In this document: piece by piece, positions 49,990-64,000 of the stretch | How positions within the stretch are numbered: the stretch's first letter is position 1 | How the letters are laid out: the number at the start of each line of letters is the position of its first letter | Assembly: GCA_902790475.1 (NCBI GenBank) | Contig: CADASG010000007.1 | Span: 1-64,000, forward strand | Direction: 5' to 3' | Origin: an uncultured Ruminococcus sp. | GTDB lineage: Bacteria; Bacillota; Clostridia; Oscillospirales; Acutalibacteraceae | DNA: 64,000 nt | Notes under the pieces: model-generated | Told to the model about the DNA's origin: nothing | Database searches by the model: none | What the model saw: only the letters and a program-made list of their open reading frames with translations | Program-made: the position numbers and the translations under genes

Positions 49990-50493
49990 TCACTTTATCC
50001 GAATAAGCTGACCGCCGCATCCCGAACAGCGGTATTTTTCGGGATTGGTGACCGCGGGCGAGCGCTTTTGACGGAAAATCTCCGCGCCGCATTTTGAGCA
50101 GCGGATTATATAGCGCGGAGGCTTGCGCATCTCCTCGGGAATGATGCTTTCGTCGCTGCGTGTGACTCGCGTGACGTTATACCCGTAGGCGGCGTTTACC
50201 TTGGCTGCGAGCTCCGCCCATTTTCCTGTGTGCTTCATGCAGCCGCGGCAGGTGTGCAGCAGCTCATGGATAACGGTTGTTTTCAGTCCGCGCTTTAGGT
50301 CAGTGCGTTCGTCAAGCAGCAGCTCCGATATCTCGATCACGTAGCTGCTTCCGAGCTTTTTGCACAGTCCGAGCCGTGTAACGGCGCGCGTGTTGATGAC
50401 AAACGAAATGCTTTTGCTGTACCTGATATTCAGCCTGTCCAGCTCTTTCATGCATTCGGCGGCATATTGTTCCAAGTCTCTCATGGCAAACAC
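49990..50493 (-). CDS. SprT-like zinc metalloprotease-domain protein
   Basis: 167 aa. HELLHTCRGCMKHTGKW (about 92-108) gives the HExxH metal site with a downstream His, as in SprT/Spartan proteins. A C-terminal zinc ribbon has CSKCGAEIF and CSGCGGQL. Start is GTG 50493 (AAGGA 6 bases upstream) or ATG 50484. Its stop is directly adjacent to that of the convergent TraX gene, with no space for a terminator. Role unknown; in eukaryotes Spartan repairs DNA-protein crosslinks. Confidence 0.8.
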   Translation of the reverse strand: MFAMRDLEQYAAECMKELDRLNIRYSKSISFVINTRAVTRLGLCKKLGSSYVIEISELLLDERTDLKRGLKTTVIHELLHTCRGCMKHTGKWAELAAKVNAAYGYNVTRVTRSDESIIPEEMRKPPRYIIRCSKCGAEIFRQKRSPAVTNPEKYRCSGCGGQLIRIK

Positions 50494-50593
50494 ACCCTAT
50501 CCTTATTAACCTAAGCTGTCCCGAGACAGACGTCGTGATAACCGTTGACAAATGACTGCGCTGAGTTTGCAGGGAAAATTTTTGAAAATTGTC

Positions 50594-50622
50594 TTGACAT
50601 CTGCGCAGGTTGATGATATAAT
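50594..50622 (+). promoter_or_regulatory. Consensus promoter of tRNA-Cys
   Basis: Perfect TTGACA (50594-50599), 17 bases and perfect TATAAT (50617-50622), 19 bases before the tRNA. Confidence 0.88.
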
Positions 50623-50641
50623 ATTAGACGTTATCTGAAAC

Positions 50642-50716
50642 GGCGACATAGCCAAGTGGTAAGGCACGAGTCTGCAAAACTCTGATGCGGCGGTTCAAAT
50701 CCGCCTGTCGCCTCCA
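50642..50716 (+). tRNA. tRNA-Cys (anticodon GCA)
   Basis: Acceptor arms GGCGACA (50642-50648) and TGTCGCC (50706-50712) pair fully. The anticodon loop CTGCAAA has GCA at 50674-50676. The T arm has GGTTCAAATCC. Discriminator base U73 and an encoded CCA (50714-50716) fit tRNA-Cys. It is a single gene with its own promoter and terminator. Confidence 0.97.
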
Positions 50717-50720
50717 GCTA

Positions 50721-50749
50721 AGCACTCCTAAACGGGGTGCTTTTGTTTT
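50721..50749 (+). terminator. Terminator of tRNA-Cys
   Basis: AGCACTCC (50721-50728) pairs with GGGGTGCT (50734-50741), with G-U tolerance, followed by TTTGTTTTA. Confidence 0.88.
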
Positions 50750-50788
50750 ATCCGCTTTATTTTTCTATCATAACACAGGAGAATTCAA

Positions 50789-51232
50789 ATGTCAAAGCTT
50801 AAAATCTATATCGCGAGTCCGTTTTTTAACGAATATGAAGTGCAGTGCCTTGAAAGGGTAGAAGCGCTCCTTTTCGGGCGCGGCTATCAGGTTTTCAGTC
50901 CCAGACTAAACGAGGTGCGCGATGAGATCACCTCAAAGGATTCGGTGTGGTCAATGGAGACTTTCATGAACGACCGCCGCTTTATTGACTGGGCGGACGT
51001 GGTCGTGATGCTCTATCACGGCTGCTACAGCGACAGCGGAACAGCCTGGGAATGCGGCTACGCTTACGGCACCCATACGCCTGTCGTGGCTGTGCATGTC
51101 GGTAGGGAACCCGGCAACGGCTCAAATCTCATGGTTCATGAAAGCGCGCACGCCAATATCACCCTTGACGAGCTTGAGGATTATGATTTTGAAAAAATGC
51201 CGTCCGTTCGTTACAGCGGCGTGATGTTTTAG
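50789..51232 (+). CDS. Nucleoside 2-deoxyribosyltransferase
   Basis: 147 aa. Exchanges bases between deoxyribonucleosides (nucleotide salvage). KIYIASPFFNEYE opens the fold; DWADVVVMLYHG and the catalytic-region motif DSGTAWECGYAYG, with the nucleophilic Glu, are typical. ACAGGAG precedes the ATG. It might belong to a related nucleotide hydrolase subgroup, since the family is broad. Confidence 0.85.
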   Translation: MSKLKIYIASPFFNEYEVQCLERVEALLFGRGYQVFSPRLNEVRDEITSKDSVWSMETFMNDRRFIDWADVVVMLYHGCYSDSGTAWECGYAYGTHTPVVAVHVGREPGNGSNLMVHESAHANITLDELEDYDFEKMPSVRYSGVMF

Positions 51233-51286
51233 CGCTCCCTCCGAAAAAAATCTTTCCTTTTTTGTCGAAATTTTTACCAAAGGTAA

Positions 51287-51315
51287 TTGCAATGCCTAAC
51301 GAAAAATAGTATACT
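51287..51315 (+). promoter_or_regulatory. Promoter of the PASTA-SH3b gene
   Basis: TTGCAA (51287-51292), 17 bases and TATACT (51310-51315). The segment TAGTATACTGTAAA (from 51307) is duplicated in tandem (from 51321), giving a second TATACT at 51324-51329. Confidence 0.6.
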
Positions 51316-51360
51316 GTAAATAGTATACTGTAAATAGATAAAAAGGAAGGGGATTTGAAT

Positions 51361-52347
51361 ATGGATAATCGCTATAACGCGCCCAACGGCTATCCGCAGC
51401 AGCAAGGCTATCAGCAGGGGTACCCTCAGCAGGGAGGCTATATGCCGCCTCAGCCGCCGGGCAATAACAACAGCGCCAAGATCATAGCTTTGATTATTTC
51501 AATCACTGCGGTGCTTATTGTGGGACTGCTTGCGTTTTTGATCATTTATTTGAATTCTCACAATCAGGGCGCAGCGCCTGTCGCTGCAACCGAAGCGTCC
51601 TATGTCAGCACGGCGCCGGAGGTGACTGTTCCCGATTTGACGGGCATGACCAAGGAACGCGCGATCAAAACGCTCAGCAGTTTGAACCTTAAAGCGCAGA
51701 TCGTGGAAGAGGAGACGAGCGAGCAAAACGCAGGCAAGGTCTTTTCGCATGTTCCCAAGGAAGGCACGCCGATCAGGAAGAACGACGAAGTGACGCTTTA
51801 CGTCGCCAAGGCTAAGCCCACCGAAAAGGCTACCGAAAAAGCGACTCAAAAAGAAACTAAAAAAACCGAGAGCAAATCAGACGAAAACAAGTCGTCATCC
51901 GTTACATATCTCTACTGTACAGCGGCGGATTACGTATCCCTGCGTTCGGGTCCCGGAGTGGGTTATACCGAGTATATCCGCGTTCCCACACGCGACGGCA
52001 TGGTATATCTGGGCGAGAAGTCCAACGGCTGGTACAAGGTCAAATACGGCGACTACACAGGCTATGTGTCGGGCAATTACGTTTCCTTTGACAAAAACGC
52101 CTCTATCAACTATACGCCCGACGGCGGTTCGGCAAACCGTTCCTACAAGGCGTACAGCACTCTGTACTGCACCGCGAGTGATTTTGTCGCGCTGAGAAGC
52201 GGCCCGGGCGTAAATTACACCGAGCTTGCGAGGATACCGCACGGCTATACGATGCGCTATATGGACTCAAAGTCCGGCAACTGGTACTATGTTTACTACA
52301 ACGGCATGTACGGCTATGTTTCCGCGTCGTATGTCGCGTTTCAATAA
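51361..52347 (+). CDS. Membrane-anchored PASTA and double SH3b protein
   Basis: 328 aa from ATG 51361, with AAGGAAGGGG upstream. A Gln/Gly/Pro/Tyr-rich cytoplasmic tail (QQGYQQGYPQQGGYMPP) leads into one membrane helix (about 40-65). Outside are a PASTA repeat (about 85-150, VTVPDLTGMTKERAIKTL), a Lys/Thr/Glu linker, and two SH3b domains (about 180-245 and 263-328, each with YVSLRSGPGV/FVALRSGPGV and WY.V.Y). These bind peptidoglycan in other proteins. No kinase or hydrolase domain. Probably a cell-wall sensor or anchor; its partner is unknown. Confidence 0.8.
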   Translation: MDNRYNAPNGYPQQQGYQQGYPQQGGYMPPQPPGNNNSAKIIALIISITAVLIVGLLAFLIIYLNSHNQGAAPVAATEASYVSTAPEVTVPDLTGMTKERAIKTLSSLNLKAQIVEEETSEQNAGKVFSHVPKEGTPIRKNDEVTLYVAKAKPTEKATEKATQKETKKTESKSDENKSSSVTYLYCTAADYVSLRSGPGVGYTEYIRVPTRDGMVYLGEKSNGWYKVKYGDYTGYVSGNYVSFDKNASINYTPDGGSANRSYKAYSTLYCTASDFVALRSGPGVNYTELARIPHGYTMRYMDSKSGNWYYVYYNGMYGYVSASYVAFQ

Positions 52348-52373
52348 TATTATGGAGAAGGAGCGTTCATCAA

Positions 52374-53108
52374 ATGTATACGTTTAATGCCGAAAAGGTA
52401 AAGAATGACTGCGTGCAGTGGATCCGTGAGTTTTTTGAGAAAAACGGCAAGGGCTGCAGCGCGGTCGTAGGGATCTCCGGAGGAAAGGACAGTTCGATCG
52501 TAGCGGCGCTTTGCGTTGAAGCGCTGGGCAAGGAGCGCGTTATCGGCGTGTTGATGCCCTGCGGCGAACAGGCTGATATCGACATGGCAAAGCTGCTGGT
52601 AAAGACCCTCGATATCAGACATTATATCATCAATATAAAGGGTGCGGTCGACGGAGTTATCGACAGTATGCCCTTCGCGCTTTCCGAGCAGAGCCGCGTC
52701 AATTTGCCGTCGCGTATCCGCATGGCGACTCTTTACGCCGTGTCTCAGTCCCACAACGGCAGGGTAGCCAACACCTGCAATTTGTCCGAGGACTGGGTGG
52801 GCTATTCCACGCGCTACGGCGATTCCGTCGGGGATTTTAGCCCCTGCTCAAATCTCACCGTGCAGGAAATGAAGCAGATCGGACGCTTGCTCGGCTTGCC
52901 CGGCGAGTTGGTTGACAAGGTTCCCACCGACGGTCTCTGCGGCAAAACCGACGAGGACAACCTCGGCTTCACCTATGCCGAGCTTGACCGCTATATCCGC
53001 GAGGGAGTTATTGAAAACGAGGAGCACAGGGAGCTTATCGACCATAAACACCGCATGAACCTGTTTAAGCTGGAACTGATGCCTGCTTTTAAACCGGATT
53101 TAGATTGA
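52374..53108 (+). CDS. nadE: Ammonia-dependent NAD+ synthetase
   Basis: 244 aa. Makes NAD+ from deamido-NAD+ using ammonia. The P-loop VVGISGGKDSSIVAALC is near 24-40; NTCNLSEDWVGYSTRYGD and CGKTDEDNLGFTYAELD are NadE motifs. There is no N-terminal glutaminase domain. GAGAAGGAG is upstream. A strong terminator follows at 53196. Confidence 0.94.
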   Translation: MYTFNAEKVKNDCVQWIREFFEKNGKGCSAVVGISGGKDSSIVAALCVEALGKERVIGVLMPCGEQADIDMAKLLVKTLDIRHYIINIKGAVDGVIDSMPFALSEQSRVNLPSRIRMATLYAVSQSHNGRVANTCNLSEDWVGYSTRYGDSVGDFSPCSNLTVQEMKQIGRLLGLPGELVDKVPTDGLCGKTDEDNLGFTYAELDRYIREGVIENEEHRELIDHKHRMNLFKLELMPAFKPDLD

Positions 53109-53195
53109 TTAACAGATCGTTGGTTTTTATATATTGCAGTGTAATTGTATAAAAAACTGCATAACGCAAGAGCAAAAACCTATAAAACGAGAAAT

Positions 53196-53230
53196 ATTGC
53201 AGGATTAGACGTCTAATCCTGCAATTTTTC
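53196..53230 (+). terminator. Terminator of nadE
   Basis: A perfect palindrome ATTGCAGGATTAGAC / GTCTAATCCTGCAAT (53196-53225), followed by TTTTC; the folded RNA would use the central bases as the loop. Confidence 0.88.
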
Positions 53231-53259
53231 TTGACAAATCATTTGCAATCGAATATAAT
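53231..53259 (+). promoter_or_regulatory. Consensus promoter of guaA
   Basis: TTGACA (53231-53236), 17 bases and TATAAT (53254-53259). It starts directly after the nadE terminator. Confidence 0.85.
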
Positions 53260-53343
53260 AAAACGCATACAGGCAGCAAAACGCTGCACCCGGTTCCTCC
53301 TGTAAAAGCAGCGGGTTTGATGAAAGGAAGGTTTACATCAAAT

Positions 53344-54876
53344 ATGCAAAAAATACTTGTTCTTGATTTCGGCGGTCAGTATAATCAGCTGATCGCGAGG
53401 CGTGTACGCGAGCAAAATATATACGCCGAAATTAAACCCTACAACAGAATAACATCAGCTCAAATCAAGGACGAGGGCTACAGCGGTATCATCTTCACGG
53501 GAGGTCCCAACAGCGTCTACGATCCTGCTTCGCCTCATTACGACAGTGAGATCCTCGATTTGGGTATACCGATCCTCGGTATTTGCTACGGCTGTCAGCT
53601 CATTGCTTATATGGCGAACGGAAAGGTCAGCAGCGCCGAAAACAGCAGCGAATACGGCAAAACTGAGCTTAACGTATTTGAAGGTCTGCTGTTCGACGGA
53701 GTTCCCAAGACAAGCGTCTGCTGGATGAGTCACCGCGACTTTATCAGCGAGCCTCCCGAGGGCTTCAAGGTTACGGCGAACACCGCGAATTGTCCCGTTG
53801 CCGCGATGAGCGACGACAAAAGGAAAATATACGGCGTTCAGTTCCATCCGGAGGTAGCCCACACCGAATACGGAAAAAACATGCTGAATAACTTCCTTTT
53901 CAACATTTGCGGCTGCACGGGCGACTGGAGAATGGATACCTTTGCCGCGAACAAGATCAGCGAGTACCGCGAACGGCTCGGCGGAAAGCGCGTGCTTTGC
54001 GCGCTTTCGGGCGGCGTTGACAGCTCGGTTGCGGCTGTTTTGCTTCACAAGGCTGTCGGCGACGACCTGACATGCGTTTTTGTCGATCACGGACTGCTGC
54101 GCAAGGGCGAGGCTGAGTCGGTCGAGAGGATCTTCCGCGACACCTTCCGCATGAACCTGATCCGCGTTGACGCCCGTGAGCGTTTCCTGTCAAAGCTTTC
54201 CGGAGTTACCGAGCCCGAGAAAAAGCGAAAGATCATAGGCGAGGAATTCATCCGCGTCTTTGAGGAGGAAGCGAAAAAGATAGGACGCGTCAATTATCTT
54301 GTTCAGGGTACGATTTATCCAGACGTTATCGAATCCGGCTTGGGAGACGCTTCGACCATAAAAAGTCACCACAATGTCGGCGGCTTGCCCTCCGTGGTGG
54401 ATTTTGAAGAGATAATCGAGCCGCTCAGAAACCTTTTCAAGGACGAGGTTTGCCGAGTCGGTTTGGAGTTAGGCATCCCCGAAGAGCTCGTTTGGCGGCA
54501 GCCGTTCCCGGGTCCGGGACTTGCTATCCGCTGTATCGGTAACATCACCGCTGAAAAGCTTGAGCTTCTCAGGGAAGCCGACGCAATATTCCGCGAGGAA
54601 GTGCAAAGCTCCGGTCTCGGCAGAGAAGCGAGCCAGTATTTTGCCGTGCTGACGGATACGCTGTCGGTCGGCGTAATGGGAGACAGCCGAACCTACGGAA
54701 GGACCGTCGTTCTCCGCTCGGTGACGACCGACGACTTTATGACGGCTGACTGGACGCGGCTGCCATATGAAGTCCTTGAACGCGCTTCATCGCGCATTAC
54801 AAACGAGGTGCGCGGCGTAACGCGCGTAGTTTACGATGTGACAAGCAAGCCTCCCGCAACGGTGGAGTGGGAGTAA
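53344..54876 (+). CDS. guaA: GMP synthase (glutamine-hydrolysing)
   Basis: 510 aa. Converts XMP to GMP with glutamine and ATP. The class I amidotransferase domain (about 1-190) has GICYGCQ with the nucleophilic Cys and [12 protein letters not shown] with the His/Glu. The ATP pyrophosphatase domain has [11 protein letters not shown] near 220, and the C-terminal dimerisation domain ends KPPATVEWE. The start is ATG 53344, where the conserved [15 protein letters not shown] begins; AAGGAAGG is 12 bases upstream. glmS follows 24 bases after it. Confidence 0.96.
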
Positions 54877-54900
54877 TAATTCTCTTAGGAGTGAGTATAA

Positions 54901-56727
54901 ATGTGCGGAATTGTTGGATATGTAGGTCACCGCGACTGCACGGATGTGCTGGTTTCGGCGCTGACCAAGCTTGAATACCGCGGTTATGATTCGGCAGGTA
55001 TCGCCGTATTTGAAAACGGTAAAATCTCTGTCGCCAAAACAAAGGGCAGACTTGCGGATTTGACCGCAAAGATGGAGAAAGAGGGCAAGCCTCACGGTCA
55101 CGCAGGTATCGGTCACACGCGCTGGGCAACTCACGGAGAGCCCTCCGACGTCAACTCACACCCTCACTCGGGCAGACGCGTGACGATCGTTCACAACGGC
55201 ATAATCGAAAATTACAAGCAGCTAAAGCAGTTTTTGCTCGAGAACGAGCGCGACGAGTTTTTGTCCGACACCGATACCGAGGTCGTGGCTCAGCTGCTCG
55301 ATTTCTATTACGATGGCAACCCGATCCGCTGTATCCGCAAGGTTCTCCATGAGCTTCGCGGTTCCTTTGCGCTGGGCATAGTCTTTGCCGACCGTCCCGA
55401 AACCGTCTATGCAGTGCGCAGTGAGAGTCCTCTGATCGTCGGTCAGGGTCAGGGAGAGGTTTTCATCGCTTCCGACGTTCCGGCTATCATCAAATACACC
55501 AAGGACTACTATTTGCTCGAGCAGGGCGAGATCGCTGTGTTGAAAAACGGAGCGGTGCAGTTTTGCTCGCTCCACGGCAGAATGCTTGAAAAAGAGCTGC
55601 TCACCGCCGACTGGGACGAGGACAGCGCCGAGAAGGGCGGCTATCCTCACTATATGCTCAAGGAGATCCACGAGCAGCCCACTGCGGTCAAAACCACGAT
55701 CACTCCGCGCATCGAGGACGGCTTGCCTAACCTCAGCGAGTGCGGAATAACTCCTGACGAGCTCAAAAAATATGAAAATATATTTATCGTCGCCTGCGGA
55801 ACCGCCATGCACGCAGGCATGGTCGGAAAGTACGTTATAGAGAAGCTGGCGCGTGTTTCGGTAACGGTTGACATAGCGAGCGAGTTCCGCTACCGCGATC
55901 CGCTGCTTACGACGAAGGATCTGGTTATCATCATCAGCCAGTCCGGCGAGACGGCTGATTCAAAAGCCGTTCTCAGCCTGGCGCGTCAAACAGGCACAAA
56001 AACGCTTGCCATAGTAAACGTAAAGGGAAGCTCCATCGCGAGGGAAGCGGACATGGTCATCTACACCCACGCGGGTCCCGAGATCGCCGTCGCCTCCACA
56101 AAGGCGTATATGGTCCAGCTCAGCGTGATGTATCTGCTGGCGTTTGAAATGGCGTTCGCAAAGGGCAGGATAGATAAGGAAGAATGCCGGCGGCTTACTG
56201 CAGGGCTGCTCGGAATGCCTAAGATTATCGAGAGCACGATCGGCAGCGTAGTCGATATGTGCCAGTATGTTTCGACAAAGCTGATCACCGCAGACAGCCT
56301 GCTCTATATCGGTCGCGGACTTGACTACGCGCTTTCAATGGAGGGCTCGCTAAAGCTCAAGGAGATAAGCTACATCCATTCCGAAAGCTACGCGGCAGGA
56401 GAGTTGAAGCACGGCACTATTTCTTTGATAACCGACGGTATGCCCGTGATCGCCGTAGCGACTCAAAATTCTTTATTAGAAAAAACAATTTCGAATATAA
56501 AAGAGGTCAAGGCTCGCGGAGCGATGACTATCGTTATCTGCGACGAGGAAGCCGATATCGACTCTCAGGCGGCGGATTACCTGATCCGGATCCCCAAGAT
56601 CAGCGAAATGCTGATGCCGATGGTCGCGACCGTACCGATGCAGCTGCTGGCGTACTACACCTCCGTCAACAAGGGCAACGACGTTGACAAGCCGAGAAAC
56701 CTCGCAAAATCGGTCACTGTAGAATAG
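54901..56727 (+). CDS. glmS: Glucosamine-6-phosphate synthase (GlmS)
   Basis: 608 aa, standard length. Uses glutamine and fructose 6-phosphate to make glucosamine 6-phosphate for the cell wall. MCGIVGYVGHRDC supplies the N-terminal nucleophilic Cys; GIGHTRWATHGEPSD is the glutaminase motif; two SIS domains carry VACGTAMHAG, ISQSGETADSK and YIGRGLDYALSMEG. The C-terminus DKPRNLAKSVTVE is conserved. The 24-base gap after guaA leaves no room for a glmS ribozyme. Confidence 0.97.
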   Translation: MCGIVGYVGHRDCTDVLVSALTKLEYRGYDSAGIAVFENGKISVAKTKGRLADLTAKMEKEGKPHGHAGIGHTRWATHGEPSDVNSHPHSGRRVTIVHNGIIENYKQLKQFLLENERDEFLSDTDTEVVAQLLDFYYDGNPIRCIRKVLHELRGSFALGIVFADRPETVYAVRSESPLIVGQGQGEVFIASDVPAIIKYTKDYYLLEQGEIAVLKNGAVQFCSLHGRMLEKELLTADWDEDSAEKGGYPHYMLKEIHEQPTAVKTTITPRIEDGLPNLSECGITPDELKKYENIFIVACGTAMHAGMVGKYVIEKLARVSVTVDIASEFRYRDPLLTTKDLVIIISQSGETADSKAVLSLARQTGTKTLAIVNVKGSSIAREADMVIYTHAGPEIAVASTKAYMVQLSVMYLLAFEMAFAKGRIDKEECRRLTAGLLGMPKIIESTIGSVVDMCQYVSTKLITADSLLYIGRGLDYALSMEGSLKLKEISYIHSESYAAGELKHGTISLITDGMPVIAVATQNSLLEKTISNIKEVKARGAMTIVICDEEADIDSQAADYLIRIPKISEMLMPMVATVPMQLLAYYTSVNKGNDVDKPRNLAKSVTVE

Positions 56728-56756
56728 ACATTTCTCACACCCTGAATAATAACAAA

Positions 56757-56796
56757 GGCGGCGCGTTCCGAAAGGAGCGTGCCGCCGCATTATTGA
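56757..56796 (+). terminator. Terminator of glmS
   Basis: GGCGGCGCGTTCC pairs with GGAGCGTGCCGCC, with G-U pairs and an AAAG-type loop; followed by GCATTATTG, a weak U-tract. Confidence 0.7.
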
Positions 56797-56843
56797 ATTT
56801 TTAGTCAAAAAGAACGACCGTTTCACAATGAGAATTTGTCGGG

Positions 56844-57590
56844 TTATTCTATCCGGTAACAGACGTATTCGCGGCTGAATTCGTAGCCGAGCTTTTCCGC
56901 AAGACGGACTGACATCTTATTCGCCGCGTCCCAGGCAGGGTACAGCCCTTCGTCAAGACATTCGAGGATAAGCTTTGCGGCGACCGCAGAGCCGAGTCCC
57001 TTATGCCGCTCTTCCTTTATAGTGTTGATTCCGATATCGATCCCATTGCGATAACGTGAATAAGAAGATGCGGCGGAAACTATCCTTCCGTTCTTCATGA
57101 CGGCAAAACCCCGACCGAGTTCGAGATACTTTTTCTTTGAATCAAAAACGGAAACATTGCTTTCAAACTTTTCATCTTTCAGACAAACATCATATAACTC
57201 TGCGTCGATCTTGCGGATGGTATAACCCTCGGGAAGAGCGTTTGCCATATTTTCAAGCTTTTTTCGATCGAATTTTGTATCCTTTCGGATCGCATAGCGT
57301 ATTTGTTTGTAAGCCGGGAAGTTGTTCTCGATCAGTTCCTCCCATGCTTCATCCTGCGGCACCACTATCATCTGCCGGTTCGGTTTGGCGCAAACAAGCT
57401 CCGTGTTCGGCTCTCCTGCGAAAAAAGCAAAATCGCCGATCACTGCCATAGCGGATTTCGGATGTTCCGTATCATCTGCAAATATCTTTCCCATCACATT
57501 GTCAAGGCAAGCAACGATGCTGGCATCAAGATCCTTCCAACTCGCAAAAACCGGAGCAGCGCTTGACGGTTCGTTCAATTCGTAAACCAT
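56844..57590 (-). CDS. GNAT family N-acetyltransferase
   Basis: 248 aa. The C-terminal GNAT core holds IDIGINTIKEERHKGLGSAVAAKL, where the R-x-x-G-x-G/A acetyl-CoA loop is HKGLGSA, and ends AEKLGYEFSREYVCYRIE. The N-terminal 110 residues form the extra domain of the GNAT_acetyltr_2 group. Acceptor unknown. GAAGGGA precedes ATG 57590. It lies head-to-tail with rlmD on the minus strand. Confidence 0.85.
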   Translation of the reverse strand: MVYELNEPSSAAPVFASWKDLDASIVACLDNVMGKIFADDTEHPKSAMAVIGDFAFFAGEPNTELVCAKPNRQMIVVPQDEAWEELIENNFPAYKQIRYAIRKDTKFDRKKLENMANALPEGYTIRKIDAELYDVCLKDEKFESNVSVFDSKKKYLELGRGFAVMKNGRIVSAASSYSRYRNGIDIGINTIKEERHKGLGSAVAAKLILECLDEGLYPAWDAANKMSVRLAEKLGYEFSREYVCYRIE

Positions 57591-57641
57591 TCTTTATTTC
57601 CCTTCTTATCAATTATTCTGTACTGTAATCATACCTCAGCC

Positions 57642-58814
57642 TCAAGATATCAATACTACCGTCTCAATGTGATTTGTGTGGGGGAACATATCTACGGGCT
57701 GGATCTTTTTTGCACGGTAGCTGCTGTGCTCGGTGAGATACTGCAAGTCTCTCGCCAGCGTTTCGGGATTGCAGCTTACATAGACCACGGTTTTGGGAGC
57801 CATTTTAATGAGCGAATCGAGAAAAACGCGGCTGCTGCCCGCACGCGGCGGATCCATCAGCACAACGTCGGGAGCTTCGCTTTCGCTTGCGGCTGCACGC
57901 ATGAATTCTCCTGCGTCTCCCTTGTAAAACCGAATGTTTTTCAGTTCGTTGGTCTTGGCGTTTTGTATCGCGTCGCGCACAGCGTCTCCGTTCAGCTCCA
58001 CGCCGATCACCCTGCCGGCACCTCGCTTTGCGGCGATAATGCCGATAGTGCCGATCCCGCAGTACGCGTCGAGCACGGTTTCATCTCCTTTGAGACCTGC
58101 GAATTCGATCGCCTTGCCGTACAGCACCTCCGTTTGAACGGGGTTGATCTGATAAAAGCTTTTGGGAGAAATGCGAAAGCGGCAGCCGCACAGAACGTCC
58201 TCGATCGTTCCGTTGCCGTAGAGGATCTGCTGCCTGTCCCCAAGCACCAAATTTGTTTGATACGGGTTGATGTTCTGAACAATGGTGGTGATCTCGGGGA
58301 ATTTTTCGCGTATAGCTTTTACAAAATTATTCTTTGAAGGAAATATATGCGTTCCCGTCACCAGCACCAGCATGACCTGACCGGTGGCAAAGCCGCGCTT
58401 TACCAGAATATGGCGCAAAAAGCCTCTGCGAGTGTCCTCGTTATAGGTGGTCATTTTAAAGGACGGCATCATTTTGCGCACGGCGGTAATGATTTTATCC
58501 GCTGTTTTGTCCTCGATCATGCAGCTGTCAACGCCGACCACATGGTGACTGCCCGACTGATAAACGCCGGAGATTATCTTTCCGCGGCGGTTGGTGTAAA
58601 ACGCCGCCTGCACCTTGTTTCGGTAGTGGTAAGGCACGTCCATCCCGATGATCGGCAGCGGCTTGGCGAATTTTTTAAGATATCGGTTCACCTTGTTCTG
58701 CTTGAAGGCGAGCTGCTCCGAATACCGCATGTTCTGCAGCTGACAGCCGCCGCATTTTTTGTATACCGGACAGGGGTGTGGATTGGTGATCTCCCTCGAT
58801 TTCATGGTTCTCAT
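57642..58814 (-). CDS. 23S rRNA (uracil-5-)-methyltransferase (RlmD/RlmCD-like)
   Basis: 390 aa. The N-terminal iron-sulfur site is CPVYKKCGGCQLQ (Cys 15, 21, 24; a fourth is in SCMIEDK). The SAM domain has LDAYCGIGTIGIIAA, VVLMDPPRAGSSR and the catalytic YVSCNPETLARDL. No N-terminal TRAM domain is evident, unlike Escherichia coli RlmD; Bacillota relatives methylate U747 and U1939, so the exact site is open. Start ATG 58814, or ATG 58805. Confidence 0.88.
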   Translation of the reverse strand: MRTMKSREITNPHPCPVYKKCGGCQLQNMRYSEQLAFKQNKVNRYLKKFAKPLPIIGMDVPYHYRNKVQAAFYTNRRGKIISGVYQSGSHHVVGVDSCMIEDKTADKIITAVRKMMPSFKMTTYNEDTRRGFLRHILVKRGFATGQVMLVLVTGTHIFPSKNNFVKAIREKFPEITTIVQNINPYQTNLVLGDRQQILYGNGTIEDVLCGCRFRISPKSFYQINPVQTEVLYGKAIEFAGLKGDETVLDAYCGIGTIGIIAAKRGAGRVIGVELNGDAVRDAIQNAKTNELKNIRFYKGDAGEFMRAAASESEAPDVVLMDPPRAGSSRVFLDSLIKMAPKTVVYVSCNPETLARDLQYLTEHSSYRAKKIQPVDMFPHTNHIETVVLIS

Positions 58815-58840
58815 TCCGTTTCTCAGGTTATTGTATTTTT

Positions 58841-58869
58841 ATTGTAGCATGTTCGGTGCGGATACGCAA
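58841..58869 (-). promoter_or_regulatory. Promoter of the rlmD-like gene
   Basis: On the minus strand, TTGCGT (58864-58869), 17 bases and TACAAT (58841-58846), 27 bases before the start. Confidence 0.55.
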
Positions 58870-58948
58870 GATGCCGCGAGAATTTTGCACATTTTGAAAA
58901 TCGTTTTGGTGCGTATTTTGTGTTACCGTATAAAAAACCTCCATATGC

Positions 58949-58977
58949 TTGACATTTAGGGCGATAAGGCATATACT
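58949..58977 (+). promoter_or_regulatory. glnN: Promoter of the glutamine synthetase gene
   Basis: TTGACA (58949-58954), 17 bases and TATACT (58972-58977). Predicted transcription start is about 58984, giving a 70-base leader that holds the hairpins described next. Confidence 0.78.
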
Positions 58978-58987
58978 AACAGCAAAG

Positions 58988-59003
58988 ACAGCAACGGCGC
59001 TGT
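58988..59003 (+). promoter_or_regulatory. Putative ANTAR-target antiterminator hairpin
   Basis: ACAGC (58988-58992) pairs with GCTGT (58999-59003) around the six-base loop AACGGC. ANTAR proteins recognise six-base loops with A at position 1 and G at position 4, as here. It overlaps the 5' arm of the terminator at 58996, so the two folds exclude each other. A second, upstream hairpin, normally part of the motif, was not found. Confidence 0.6.
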
Positions 59004-59033
59004 GGGCAGATACCCGCAGTGCCTTTATTATTT
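58996..59033 (+). terminator. Leader terminator (attenuator) before glutamine synthetase
   Basis: GGCGCTGTGGG (58996-59006) pairs with CCCGCAGTGCC (59013-59023): 11 bp including two G-U pairs, with a 6-base loop, followed by TTTATTATTT. It stands between the promoter and the ribosome binding site, so it would stop transcription unless blocked. Confidence 0.75.
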
Positions 59034-59053
59034 CTGTACAGGAGAGTTGAGCA

Positions 59054-61147
59054 ATGCCGAGAGTACCCGAATTATTTGGAGCAAACGTATTTAACGATAA
59101 AAAGATGCAGGAGCGCCTTCCAAAATCCACCTATAAGGCGCTGAAAAAGACTATACAGGACGGCGAGCCGCTGGATCTTAGCGTAGCTAACGTTGTGGCT
59201 GCCGCAATGAAGGACTGGGCGATCGAGATGGGCTGCACTCACTATACCCACTGGTTCCAGCCGATGACGGGCGTTACCGCCGAAAAGCACGACAGCTTTA
59301 TCCAGCCCAACGGCGACGGCGTTATAATGGAATTCTCGGGCAAGGAGCTCATCAAGGGCGAACCCGACGCGTCGTCATTCCCCTCCGGCGGTATCCGCGC
59401 CACATTCGAGGCGCGCGGCTACACCACGTGGGACCCCACCTCTCCGGCTTTTGTCAGAGACGGTTCTCTGTATATCCCCACCGCGTTCTGTTCATATACA
59501 GGCGAGGTGCTCGATAAAAAAACTCCGCTGCTCCGCTCAATGGAGCGCATCAGCAGCGAAGCCGTAAAGATACTTCACCTTCTGGGAAAAACCGAAGTTA
59601 CCCGCGTAATAACCACCGTGGGCCCGGAGCAGGAGTACTTCCTCATTGACCGCGAGCTTTATAACCGCCGCGAGGATCTCATGCTCACCGGCAGGACTCT
59701 TTTCGGTGCGAAAGCGCCCAAGGGTCAGGAGCTTGACGACCACTACTTCGGCGCGATCAAAACCAGGGTTTCCGCGTACATGAAGGATTTAGACGAGGAG
59801 CTTTGGAAGCTTGGAGTGCTTGCAAAGACAAAGCACAACGAGGTCGCACCCTCGCAGCACGAGCTTGCGCCGATTTTCACCACCTCAAACATAGCCAACG
59901 ACCACAACGAGCTGACAATGGAGATCATGAAAAAGACCGCCGAAAAGCACGGTCTGGTTTGCCTTCTGCACGAAAAGCCGTTTGCGGGCGTGAACGGCTC
60001 AGGCAAGCACAACAACTGGTCGCTCTCTACAAATACGGGCGAAAACCTGCTCTCACCCGGCAAGCACCCCGAGGACAATTTGCAGTTCCAGCTGTTTTTG
60101 GCGGCGGTCGTCAAGGCGGTTGACGAGTATCAGGATCTGCTGCGCGCGACCGTTGCGTCGGCAGGAAACGATCACCGTTTGGGAGCCCACGAAGCACCGC
60201 CTGCCATTATCTCAATGTATCTCGGCGACGATCTGGGCGAGATGGTGGATTCCATCATCAACGGCGAGGAATATGTCAGCCACGGCAAGGAGCAGATGCG
60301 AACCGGAGTAGACGTGCTGCCGGATTTCAAAAAGGACACCTCCGACCGCAACCGCACCTCTCCCTTTGCCTTTACGGGCAACAAGTTTGAGTTCCGCGCA
60401 CTCGGCTCCGCGCTCAACATCGGCTGCCCCAACTATATGCTCAACACAATGGTCGCCGAGGAGCTGAGCCAGTTCTATGTGGAGCTGAAAAACGCCGATG
60501 ATATCAACAAGGCGGTAAGATCGCTGGTGAAAAACGTGCTTACCGAGCACCGCAGGATCATATTCAACGGCGACAACTACACCGACGAATGGGTAGAAGA
60601 GGCAAAGCGCAGAGGTCTGCTCAACCTCAAATCCCTGCCCGACGCGTTCAGCCATTTTCTTGACCGCAAGAACGTGGAGCTGTTCGTTAAGAATAAAATC
60701 GTGACCGAAGCGGAATATCAGGCGCGCTATGAAATCGAGCTTGAAACCTATTGCAAGCAGCTCAATATCGAGGCGCTCACAATGATAGATATGGCAAAGA
60801 AGAAGATCACCCCGGCTGTCACCGCCTTTGTTCGCGAGATGACGGACGCGGCGCTTGCCAAGAAAGCCCTGTCAGCCGATATCCCCACCTCGGTCGAGGA
60901 AGAGCTGGTGATGAGCCTGTCAAACAAGCTGGTGTGCTTTGTTAAGAAAACTTCCGAGCTTGAGGACGCGGTCATGGCTGCGAGCGAGCACAAACAGGAC
61001 GAACTCACCTGCGCCAAGTATTTCCGCGAGGTAGTTTTCGCGAAAATGCAGGAGCTCAGAGCGGTCGGCGACAGCATGGAAACCGAAACCGCCTCCGATT
61101 TCTGGCCGTATCCGTCATACTGCGAGCTGCTGTTCAGCGTGGAATAA
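59054..61147 (+). CDS. glnN: Glutamine synthetase type III
   Basis: 697 aa; the length and the opening [18 protein letters not shown] identify the GSIII class, which forms dodecamers and assimilates ammonia into glutamine. [20 protein letters not shown], the ATP-site [10 protein letters not shown], the [16 protein letters not shown] segment and [14 protein letters not shown] hold active-site residues. ACAGGAGAG precedes the ATG. Expression is probably set by the leader attenuator and the ANTAR protein encoded 230 bases downstream. Confidence 0.96.
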
Positions 61148-61163
61148 CGCAAATAAACATCAA

Positions 61164-61191
61164 GGCGATATCGCGTCTGCGCGGTATCGCC
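61164..61191 (+). other. Strong hairpin after glutamine synthetase
   Basis: GGCGATATCGCG and CGCGGTATCGCC form 12 bp with a 4-base loop. No U-tract follows, so it may protect the mRNA end rather than terminate. The rest of the 230-base gap (61148-61377) is AT-rich with nothing else supported. Confidence 0.6.
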
Positions 61192-61377
61192 GTCAAGTAT
61201 ATATAATATGTATATGTCTATCCTGAAAAAACAACCAAAAATATTTGTTTAACGCGCTGTATTTAGTGCGATTTATCGAAGCGTGAAAAATCTGATTATA
61301 ATTCCAAAAAGTAAAAAATAATTCGCCGAAATCTTGTAAAATAATAAGTTGGAAAGAGACGTTGCGGAGGTGGCGAT

Positions 61378-61947
61378 TTGAAAAAAGCTTTGCTTGTTTG
61401 CCGTCCCGAGCAAAATGTCGCTCAGCTCAGGGAGCTTCTTGTATCCGAGGGCTGTGAAAAGATATCCGCCGCTTTTTCGGCGTACGGCGCCGAGGAGGCT
61501 GTTCACGGCGGAGAGTTTGATCTTATCTGTATAAACGCGCCGCTGGTAGATGAAAACGGCATTGATTTGTCGCGGCGTCTTGCCGAAGCGACAAAAGCCG
61601 TGGTCGTTATCCTTGTTCCGCAAAAAAACCTAAAGGAACTCGGCGAGCTGCTTGCTCCATGCGGAGTTTTGACGGCGGCAAAGCCGCTGAACAGACAGCT
61701 GTTTCACCTTATGCTGAGCTTCGCTTCAGGGATGCGCTCCCGTTTTATCGCCGCAGGTGAAGAGACCGAACGGCTCAAGGGCATGGTCGAGGATATCAAG
61801 ATCATCGACCGCGCCAAGCTGCTTTTGGTGTCCTGCCTTAACATGAGCGAGGAACAGGCGCACCGTTACCTTGAAAAACAGGCGATGGATCTGCGCACCG
61901 CTAAGGTCAATGTTGCCAAGCAGGTCATACAGACATATGAAAACTGA
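61378..61947 (+). CDS. ANTAR-domain antitermination regulator with atypical receiver
   Basis: 189 aa starting at TTG 61378 behind GGAGGTGG. A receiver-like domain (about 1-115) opens KKALLVCRPEQN, without the usual acidic pair, and has FDLICINAPLVDENGIDL, where Asn stands at the phosphoacceptor position; the conserved Lys remains (AAKPLNR). A helical linker leads to the ANTAR domain (about 128-187: IIDRAKLLLVSCLNMSEEQA, then YLEKQAMDLR and VAKQVIQTYE). ANTAR binds RNA hairpins to prevent termination. Its likely target is the leader of the neighbouring glutamine synthetase gene; this is inferred from position and the loop sequence. Confidence 0.87.
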   Translation: MKKALLVCRPEQNVAQLRELLVSEGCEKISAAFSAYGAEEAVHGGEFDLICINAPLVDENGIDLSRRLAEATKAVVVILVPQKNLKELGELLAPCGVLTAAKPLNRQLFHLMLSFASGMRSRFIAAGEETERLKGMVEDIKIIDRAKLLLVSCLNMSEEQAHRYLEKQAMDLRTAKVNVAKQVIQTYEN

Positions 61948-62003
61948 CAGAGTTGGTTTTTCAGCGTATTTATACGCATTTATATAACGAAAGGATTGTT
62001 GAT

Positions 62004-63083
62004 ATGAGTCGTGCTGCGTACTTAGTTCTTGAAAACGGAACCGTTTTTGAGGGCAAGGCATTCGGTGCCGAAAAAGAAACAACGGGAGAGCTTGTCTTTA
62101 CAACCGCAATGACAGGCTATCTTGAAACACTCACCGACCCCAGCTATTACGGTCAGGTGGTTCTTCAGACATTCCCGCTTATCGGTAACTACGGCGTTAT
62201 TCCCGCCGATTTCGAGAGTGAGAATCCCACACTAAAGGGTTATATTGTTCGTGAATGGTGCCAAGCTCCTTCCAACTTCCGTTGCGAGGGTAATCTTGAC
62301 ACCTTTTTAAAAGACGTCGGAATTCCCGGCATCTACGGGATCGACACCCGCGCCCTCACCCGTATCGTGCGCGAGTACGGCGTAATGAACTGCAGGATCC
62401 AGTATACGCCCGAGGTCACCGAGGAGACCCTTAACGATATCAGGAAGTATGTCATCACCGAGGCGGTCGAGCATACTACGGTGCAGCACAACGAAGTATT
62501 CACTCCCGAGCAAACAGAGTTAAAGGTAGTGCTGATGGATTTCGGTGCGAAGCATAACATAGAGCGCGAGCTCGTTCACCGCGGCTGCGAGGTCACCGTC
62601 GTTCCGGCTCACACCTCGGCAGAGGAGATCGCGGCGCTTGCTCCCGACGGCATAATGCTGTCAAACGGCCCCGGAGACCCTGCCAAAAACACAGAGATAA
62701 TCAAGCAGCTTTCACTGCTTGCGGATAAAAAGATACCGATGTTCGGCATCTGTCTGGGTCACCAGCTGCTCGCGCTTTCTCAGGGCGCCGAGACCAAAAA
62801 GCTTCACTACGGTCACCGCGGCGCAAACCAGCCCGTAAAGGAGCTTGAAACGGGCAAAATTTATATCACCTCGCAAAATCACGGCTACGCTGTTGTGTCC
62901 GACAGCCTTCCCGATACCGCCGAGGTCAGCTTTGAAAACGGCAACGACGGAACCTGCGAGGGCGTAAACTACAAAAACATGCCCGCGTTTTCCGTTCAGT
63001 TCCATCCCGAAGCCTGCGGCGGTCCGCAGGATACCGCGTTCCTGTTCGATAAATTCATTAAGCTGATGAAGGATAACAAATAA
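62004..63083 (+). CDS. carA: Carbamoyl-phosphate synthase small subunit
   Basis: 359 aa glutaminase subunit that channels ammonia to CarB for pyrimidine and arginine synthesis. [17 protein letters not shown] is the N-terminal signature; the nucleophile site is [31 protein letters not shown] carries the His/Glu. The start is ATG 62004, preceded by AAAGGA; an upstream in-frame ATG at 61953 is not supported. It ends 23 bases before carB. Confidence 0.96.
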
Positions 63084-63106
63084 TCTATTTAGATAAGGAT
63101 GATAAT

Positions 63107-64000
63107 ATGCCACTGAAAAAGGATATCAAAAGAGTAATGGTTATCGGCTCGGGTCCTATTGTTATCGGACAGGCAGCCGAATTTGACTACGCAGGCACAC
63201 AGGCTTGCCGCGCGTTAAAGGAAGAGGGACTGGAGGTCATCCTGGTCAACTCCAACCCTGCTACCATCATGACGGACAACGCCATGGCGGATAAGATCTA
63301 CATTGAACCGCTCACCCTTGAAACCGTCAAGCGTATAATCAAAAAGGAGCGTCCCGACAGTCTGCTGTCCACCTTAGGCGGTCAGACGGGTCTGACGCTT
63401 TCCATGCAGCTTGCCAAGGAGGGCTTTTTAAAGAAATACGGCGTTCAGCTTTTAGGAGCTAATCCCGACACTATCGACAAGGCTGAGGACAGGCAGATGT
63501 TCAAGGACACCATGCTGAGCATCGGTCAGCCCGTGATCCCCTCAACGGTCGTCAACGACGTTGACTCCGCCGTTAAATTCGCGGAGGAGATCGGCTATCC
63601 CGTTATCATTCGCCCTGCGTTCACGCTCGGCGGCACAGGCGGCGGCATTGTACACGACGAGGAGGAGCTGCGCGAGATCACCTCAAACGGTCTGGAGCTT
63701 TCGCCGATCACTCAGGTTTTGGTTGAAAAGTGCGTTTCCGGCTGGAAGGAGATCGAGTTTGAGGTAATGCGCGACAGCGCAGGCAACGTTATCACGATCT
63801 GCTCAATGGAAAACATGGATCCCGTCGGCGTTCACACGGGCGACTCCATCGTTATCGCTCCTGCCGTTACGCTGGCTGACAAGGAGTATCAGATCCTGCG
63901 CTCAGCGGCGCTCAGCATCGTTTCGGCGCTCAAGGTAGAGGGCGGCTGCAACTGCCAGTTCGCGCTCGATCCCGAAACCTTTGAGTACGCGGTCATCGAG
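63107..64000 (+). CDS. carB: Carbamoyl-phosphate synthase large subunit (5' part)
   Basis: The gene starts at ATG 63107, behind AAGGATG, and stays open for 298 codons to the window edge; the family is about 1,060 aa, so roughly the first quarter is present. It opens [20 protein letters not shown] and continues [20 protein letters not shown], then SNPATIMTD, the family's first ATP-grasp region; the Gly-rich loop FTLGGTGGG follows near 168. The C-terminal end lies beyond the window. Confidence 0.96.

Follow-up and report, generated by a model that had tools for sequence, protein, structure and literature searches.

What controls glnN, the gene of a type III glutamine synthetase (GSIII), at a locus where the leader contains two overlapping RNA structures and an ANTAR protein gene follows downstream? 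We addressed this question in an uncultured Ruminococcus sp. (assembly GCA_902790475.1, contig CADASG010000007.1, positions 1 to 64,000), and this whole stretch of 64,000 nucleotides is called the window hereafter. To our knowledge, nitrogen control is poorly described in many Clostridia, including dominant gut and rumen species. Comparison with 162 genomes of the genus and 391 genomes of the class makes it quite probable that the leader is a transcription attenuator under antitermination by an ANTAR protein that acts on one hairpin, and that this arrangement is common to many ammonium and glutamine genes of the class.

The leader elements proposed in the original prediction were recovered at their positions (Table 1). 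On direct reading the promoter was exact to the base; it scored 11 out of 12 and was one of two promoters found by a scan of positions 58700-59300 (0.6 in shuffles). The small hairpin is present, with a six-base loop that has A at its first and G at its fourth position and is closed by a C:G pair. The coordinates of the terminator and its U-rich tail, which reads TTTATTATTT (59024-59033), were also borne out, and it was one of two terminators in the scanned interval (0.7 in shuffles). None of 200 shuffles equalled its folding energy of -22.2 kcal/mol (z -5.7). Bases 58996-59003 are common to the hairpin and the terminator stem, and constrained folding with the small hairpin imposed reduced the terminator to a remnant of five pairs; the two structures are predicted to be mutually exclusive. 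Over the same 50 nt the small hairpin is weak (-6.6 versus -22.4 for the terminator), and because the terminator is far stronger, termination should be the default. Transcription is predicted to start ~7 nt past the -10 box and hence ~4 nt ahead of the hairpin, so that a first hairpin would not fit.

Table 1. Features of the glnN locus in the window
Feature	Position	Strand	Details
Sigma-70 type promoter	58949..58977	+	TTGACA 58949-58954, 17-nt spacer, TATACT 58972-58977; direct reading and scan
Putative antiterminator hairpin ACAGC-AACGGC-GCTGT	58988..59003	+	Arms 58988-58992/58999-59003; loop AACGGC 58993-58998
Intrinsic terminator	58996..59033	+	11-pair stem 58996-59006/59013-59023; U-rich tail 59024-59033
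Ribosome-binding site and start codon	59040..59056	+	AGGAG 59040-59044, ATG 59054; sequence
glnN (GSIII), controlled gene	59054..61147	+	PF12437 (E 2.7e-80), PF18318, PF00120
ANTAR protein gene, proposed regulator	61378..61947	+	PF03861 (E 1.6e-14); receiver-like domain

The gene said to encode an ANTAR protein downstream of glnN does so: its product matches PF03861 above the cut-off and PF00072 just under the cut-off, and the gene begins 230 bases past glnN. A 12-bp hairpin without a U-run (61164-61191) separates the two genes. The predicted structure (mean predicted local distance difference test, pLDDT, of 91) consists of a receiver fold, a long helix (106-154) and two (ANTAR) helices, and the protein has the architecture of receiver-like domain, coiled coil and ANTAR domain. 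Its profile matches include 1s8n, 6wsh, AmiR (1qo0) and NasR (4akk), and its closest named relatives come from uncultured Ruminococcus and R. bromii. Close relatives, with E values of about 1e-36 or better, are called type A or window-type here; other ANTAR proteins scored ~6e-24 or worse, with as sole exception to this split a fragment at a contig end (G091), which was counted as window-type. In 9 of 9 sequences, and in 90% or more of a set of 24 relatives, Asn replaces the usual phosphorylation Asp of the receiver. Type A proteins accordingly lack the phosphorylatable Asp that is a feature of EutV-type proteins, and the signal to them is probably a partner or a ligand. The window genome has two more window-type ANTAR genes, at G000:C10:32301-32861 (L003) and G000:C112:22-582 (L002). 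After the C10 copy comes a carA-like gene that is nearly identical, by eye, to the one behind the window ANTAR gene, which may point to a mixed assembly (contamination 3.64).

Within the genus, the 30 top-scoring GSIII loci by family score include 26 with the whole unit of promoter, 10-13 nt, hairpin fitting ACAGCAANGGNGCTG and overlapping terminator. A pattern containing AANGG with a C:G closing pair matched 26 of the 30 loci fetched by gene, and the four non-matching loci (L006, L012, L014, L019) all came from genomes without a detected ANTAR gene. A preset test of the original prediction asked for leaders that lose one of the two elements: among gene-fetched GSIII leaders, hairpin and terminator were present in 29/29 with a type A gene, in 3/15 with another ANTAR only and in 5/21 with no ANTAR found, by a detection rule that was written after viewing such leaders and that fires on 1 of 1300 shuffled leaders. 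Hence, the unit was complete in every one of these leaders from genomes with a window-type ANTAR and missing from 16 of the 21 leaders where no ANTAR was found, a strong though imperfect link. Several leaders in ANTAR-less genomes consist of a promoter, a ribosome site and a start codon, and nothing more. These counts exclude five leaders (G116:C61, G051, G091, G146, G147) fetched by a search, R1, whose training set was the window plus 17 leaders of the genus; with them the numbers become 30/30 with type A and 9/25 with no ANTAR found. Strong R1 matches (E up to 1e-4), which within the genus are partly circular, occurred in 87 genomes with type A and in 9 without (G009, G033, G035, G051, G116, G133, G134, G146, G147), while 3 genomes had type A without a match and 63 had neither. 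The R1 matches in G033, G035, G003:C11, G040:C187, G115 and G122 were set aside, being by eye terminators without a promoter-anchored leader or a recognised nitrogen gene.

The element is not confined to the window glnN. In the genus it also precedes Amt genes (L142, L186, L193, L196) and glmS (L139), as named by eye, and the second GSIII gene of the window genome (G000:C30:22484-26038; L145, L204) has a like leader with one stem mismatch and an Amt gene directly after it. In the R. bromii group (e.g., L244:3871, L231:3275, L238:3701), another single hairpin with a terminator lies between GSIII and Amt; it has an ACAC/GTGT stem and no TTGACA/TATAMT promoter at the usual distance.

Class-wide (Clostridia, judging by the named relatives), the pattern TTGACA-N16-18-TATAMT-N6-21-CAANGGYG was found in 85 of the 391 genomes, and the reversed whole pattern gave two matches in total. 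When only the octamer was reversed and the promoter kept, 21 matches appeared in 16 of 172 genomes; in these same genomes the real pattern gave 76 matches, spread over 40 of them (hand count), and raw matches therefore hold a fair share of chance. The 147 inspected matches outside the window genome represent 139 distinct sites, 109 of which form stems of 4 bp or more (the fixed C:G pair included), whereas shuffled flanks gave a mean of 33 and a maximum of 48 in 1000 trials. An overlapping terminator accompanies 98/109 stem sites versus 6/30 stemless sites, and in the octamer-reversed control 1 of 20 distinct sites had a stem and none had stem plus terminator. Stems occur at 81 of the 84 sites that precede recognised nitrogen genes and at 28 of the 55 other sites, so that unrecognised genes follow 27 of the 30 sites that lack a stem. 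At 90 of the 109 sites the loop lies 12-16 nt past the -10 box, which fits a predicted start just ahead of the hairpin; the pattern itself demanded a short distance, allowing 7-22 nt.

The genes after the 109 stem sites were named from sequence clusters, by eye and with Pfam checks of 20 examples. They comprise GSIII (29), class II amidotransferases (28; by signature mostly the small glutamate-synthase type, with few GltB and GlmS), Amt (14), glutamate dehydrogenase (6), ATP synthase subunit a (4), AsnA, PyrG and PurC (3 each) and CarA (2); single cases include PurA, MurT, GATase and a type I glutamine synthetase, and four sites have no called gene. In more distant loci, the element stands ahead of what is likely a glutamate dehydrogenase gene at L273 and likely a type I glutamine synthetase gene at L279, and at L276, from Sinanaerobacter, it precedes GSIII and Amt; these loci vary in the stem while the loop is C-AANGGY-G. 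This set of targets suggests that the element is probably a shared nitrogen control. Since the targets mix ammonia-fixing and glutamine-using enzymes, the sign of control is not obvious. The four ATP synthase sites (L415, L416, L430, L471), which belong to one gene cluster (Pfam run on L415 and L416 only), are unexpected for a nitrogen regulon. Pairs of divergent promoters that both carry the element occur at L423, L426, L431, L432, L441, L442, L443, L449, L467, L468 and L473, with ~30 to 140 bases between the -35 boxes. Leaders with a GAAC/GTTC stem (L291, L292, L295, L302, L309) have long, complex terminators and may form a subclass.

Both structures covary. The terminator showed 24 double-change cells in 18 genus leaders versus 9.0 when shuffled, and the hairpin stems of the class (36 distinct hairpins) showed 52 versus 17.3, with a score of 0.700 versus 0.285, in a test in which the search pattern fixed the loop and closing pair. 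Loop invariance in sets A1 and A4 was likewise set by the search patterns and is no separate evidence. The fourth stem pair failed in 2 of the 84 nitrogen-gene sites versus 48 in shuffles. In the 18 genus leaders, which were chosen by a pattern fixing the arms, no change was seen in the small hairpin. We dropped the claim that the shared arm is frozen in set A1 while its terminator partner varies, because the A1 pattern fixed both hairpin arms.

These data bear on the alternative that the inverted repeat works at the DNA level, as the operator of a repressor or activator. The repeat does lie just past the start, and the first 18 genus leaders, with their arms fixed, would suit an operator in showing no covariation. 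Yet the stems changed in a compensatory manner around an asymmetric loop, nearly all of them overlap a terminator as counted above, and G.T at the second pair, which breaks a DNA palindrome, occurred at 32 of the 84 sites (40 in shuffled flanks, hence no enrichment). On the compensatory changes and the G.T pairs we rejected the operator, which now seems barely credible.

If the element works as RNA, what recognises it? An ANTAR domain was detected in 63 of the 67 genomes with stem-plus-terminator sites versus 133 of the 324 others (Fisher 5.6e-17), and type A in 52 of the 67 versus 51 of the 324; site lists and family labels for these and the linkage counts were entered by hand. Across the 16 informative families, 44 of 48 such genomes had an ANTAR gene versus 31.1 expected, a value reached in none of 10000 permutations, and ANTAR genomes occur in all 31 families having stem-plus-terminator sites. 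Genomes with weak matches only, lacking stem plus terminator, were not enriched (11/19, p 0.64); one of these 19, G190, was later moved by hand to the real-site genomes, as its two sites equal those of G223. Linkage points the same way. A type A gene lies within 10 kb of a site in 29 of 53 genomes, a count that omits some chance-like sites; at three class loci an ANTAR gene directly follows a glnA-like gene (named by eye), and at L479 and L480 the leader site, a glutamate-synthase-type cluster, glnA and the ANTAR gene lie on one strand. The original prediction of nitrogen-responsive ANTAR antitermination is thus supported in its ANTAR part by comparison, while "nitrogen-responsive" derives solely from the target genes.

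Several observations qualify this interpretation or weigh against it. The small hairpin of the window lies within chance when taken alone, as 25 of 200 shuffles of 58978-59010 folded equally well, and its weight comes from the comparative data rather than from single-sequence folding. In the genus, the unit is kept without a detected ANTAR gene in G113, G027, G009, G134 and G046 (completeness 71% for G009 and 58% for G134; the G046 unit lies ~200 bases upstream), and by pattern or eye also in G116, G051, G146 and G147, where no ANTAR was found. In the class, G200, G204, G409 and G541 have sites without a detected ANTAR gene, as does G448, whose Amt site lacks a T-run. Conversely, the strict pattern finds no stem-plus-terminator site in 133 of the genomes with ANTAR, the co-occurrence was corrected for descent by family only, and the genes behind 28 of the 109 stem sites fall outside the signature list. 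Moreover, NasR binds one hairpin with an affinity of only ~12 uM and two with ~1 uM (PMC7496416).

An alternative explanation might be that the one-hairpin attenuator regulon is real but that another RNA-binding protein recognises the hairpin, with ANTAR genes as frequent neighbours of nitrogen operons. The genomes with the element but no detected ANTAR gene would be consistent with this, and the two ANTAR proteins whose binding was measured hold single hairpins poorly (PMC3369931, PMC7496416). We nevertheless regard another protein as unlikely, since the loop and closing pair fit the ANTAR code (PMC7496416), hairpin and terminator are jointly missing from most genus leaders without a window-type ANTAR, and the co-occurrence holds within families. 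In particular, the consensus obtained for NasR by systematic evolution of ligands by exponential enrichment (SELEX) has the same features as the window loop: a C:G closing pair, A at the first and G at the fourth position (PMC7496416).

Direct control by a small molecule, or by no factor at all with the hairpin as a folding or pausing element, might also be considered. The architecture is simple enough for this, and binding by the candidate protein is itself a proposal. However, no Rfam family reached the gathering score in positions 50000-64000 of the window, and over 18 loci Rfam gave a T-box in L276 alone, away from the element. The conserved part, one hexaloop with its closing pair, appears small for a metabolite pocket, and the element is coupled to ANTAR presence. 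The riboswitch reading was rejected for want of an Rfam match at the element, and small-molecule or factor-free control as a whole is very unlikely.

Returning to ANTAR antitermination, how does a single hairpin compare with known systems? Published ANTAR targets have two hairpins with A at the first and G at the fourth loop position, the second overlapping the terminator (PMC3369931, PMC8164766). Two tandem hairpins with a short linker were not found here, and the 12-16 nt behind the -10 box leave no room for them. The original prediction was right in seeing one hairpin but suggested that it may be a reduced target, whereas leaders of this group ordinarily have just one. In its proposed working the leader resembles ANTAR antitermination, but it lacks one defining feature of the published two-hairpin family. 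A scan for two-hairpin leaders in 1.05 Mb of ANTAR-centred loci returned five candidates and none in one shuffle. Two are convincing (L352:2704 and L358:93, near other ANTAR kinds), and three are doubtful: L284 and L319 beside window-like ANTARs and L371 beside another ANTAR. L319:1252 is a direct repeat of a hexaloop hairpin with G:C closing pairs, and probably a repeat element. The convincing cases imply that the two-hairpin form exists in the class and that the one-hairpin form is a distinct arrangement.

The element shares with EutV, NasR and AmiR systems the hexaloop with A and G at these positions, the C:G closing pair, a hairpin exclusive with a terminator, nitrogen targets and a genomic ANTAR gene (PMC3369931). 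It differs from them in having one hairpin, a few bases past the predicted start, instead of two, and from EutV in that EutV uses the receiver phosphorylation Asp whereas the window-type receiver has none. Two further parallels are NitR, from solventogenic clostridia, and Clo1313_2030, from C. thermocellum: there too an ANTAR or antiterminator gene lies beside glutamine synthetase and glutamate synthase genes, with ammonia sensing as the suggested role (PMC4676874). The C. thermocellum ANTAR gene was reported to track expression of the glutamine synthetase-glutamate synthase (GS-GOGAT) cluster, and was suggested to be an ammonia-sensitive antiterminator (PMC4676874). What differs is that the passages on these systems name no RNA target, whereas an RNA target and a gene set are proposed here, NitR being compared by description only. 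Antiterminators of the BglG/LicT type, which act on the ribonucleic antiterminator (RAT), also use a single antiterminator hairpin exclusive with a terminator, but they belong to another protein family and act on a longer, internally looped RNA of sugar genes (PMC3369931, PMC3369936). A literature search over open-access papers turned up neither an ANTAR target with a single hairpin nor the leader described here.

In the mechanism that we propose, RNA polymerase would start a few bases ahead of the hairpin, and by default the strong terminator would form and end transcription before the ribosome site. An active ANTAR protein, encoded downstream or by a paralogue, would hold the 5'-terminal hairpin via its C-AANGGY-G loop. 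The terminator stem would thereby lose its eight leading bases, so that polymerase could read on into glnN. Many ammonium and glutamine genes of the class would be controlled in the same way, by a one-hairpin element shortly after the promoter. That an ANTAR protein binds the element, that one hairpin suffices, and that nitrogen status sets the response, with whatever sign, is what we infer from these sequence comparisons.

We lean towards the wider view that the element represents a one-hairpin ANTAR code, in which the first hairpin of the nascent transcript, just past the start site, is read with neither phosphorylation nor a second hairpin. Many families of Clostridia would share this control of their ammonium assimilation and glutamine use, and regulator and targets would often be clustered. 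Such a code would give clostridial nitrogen control a specific RNA element, a set of target genes and a candidate regulator, and its single hairpin would challenge the rule that ANTAR proteins require two.
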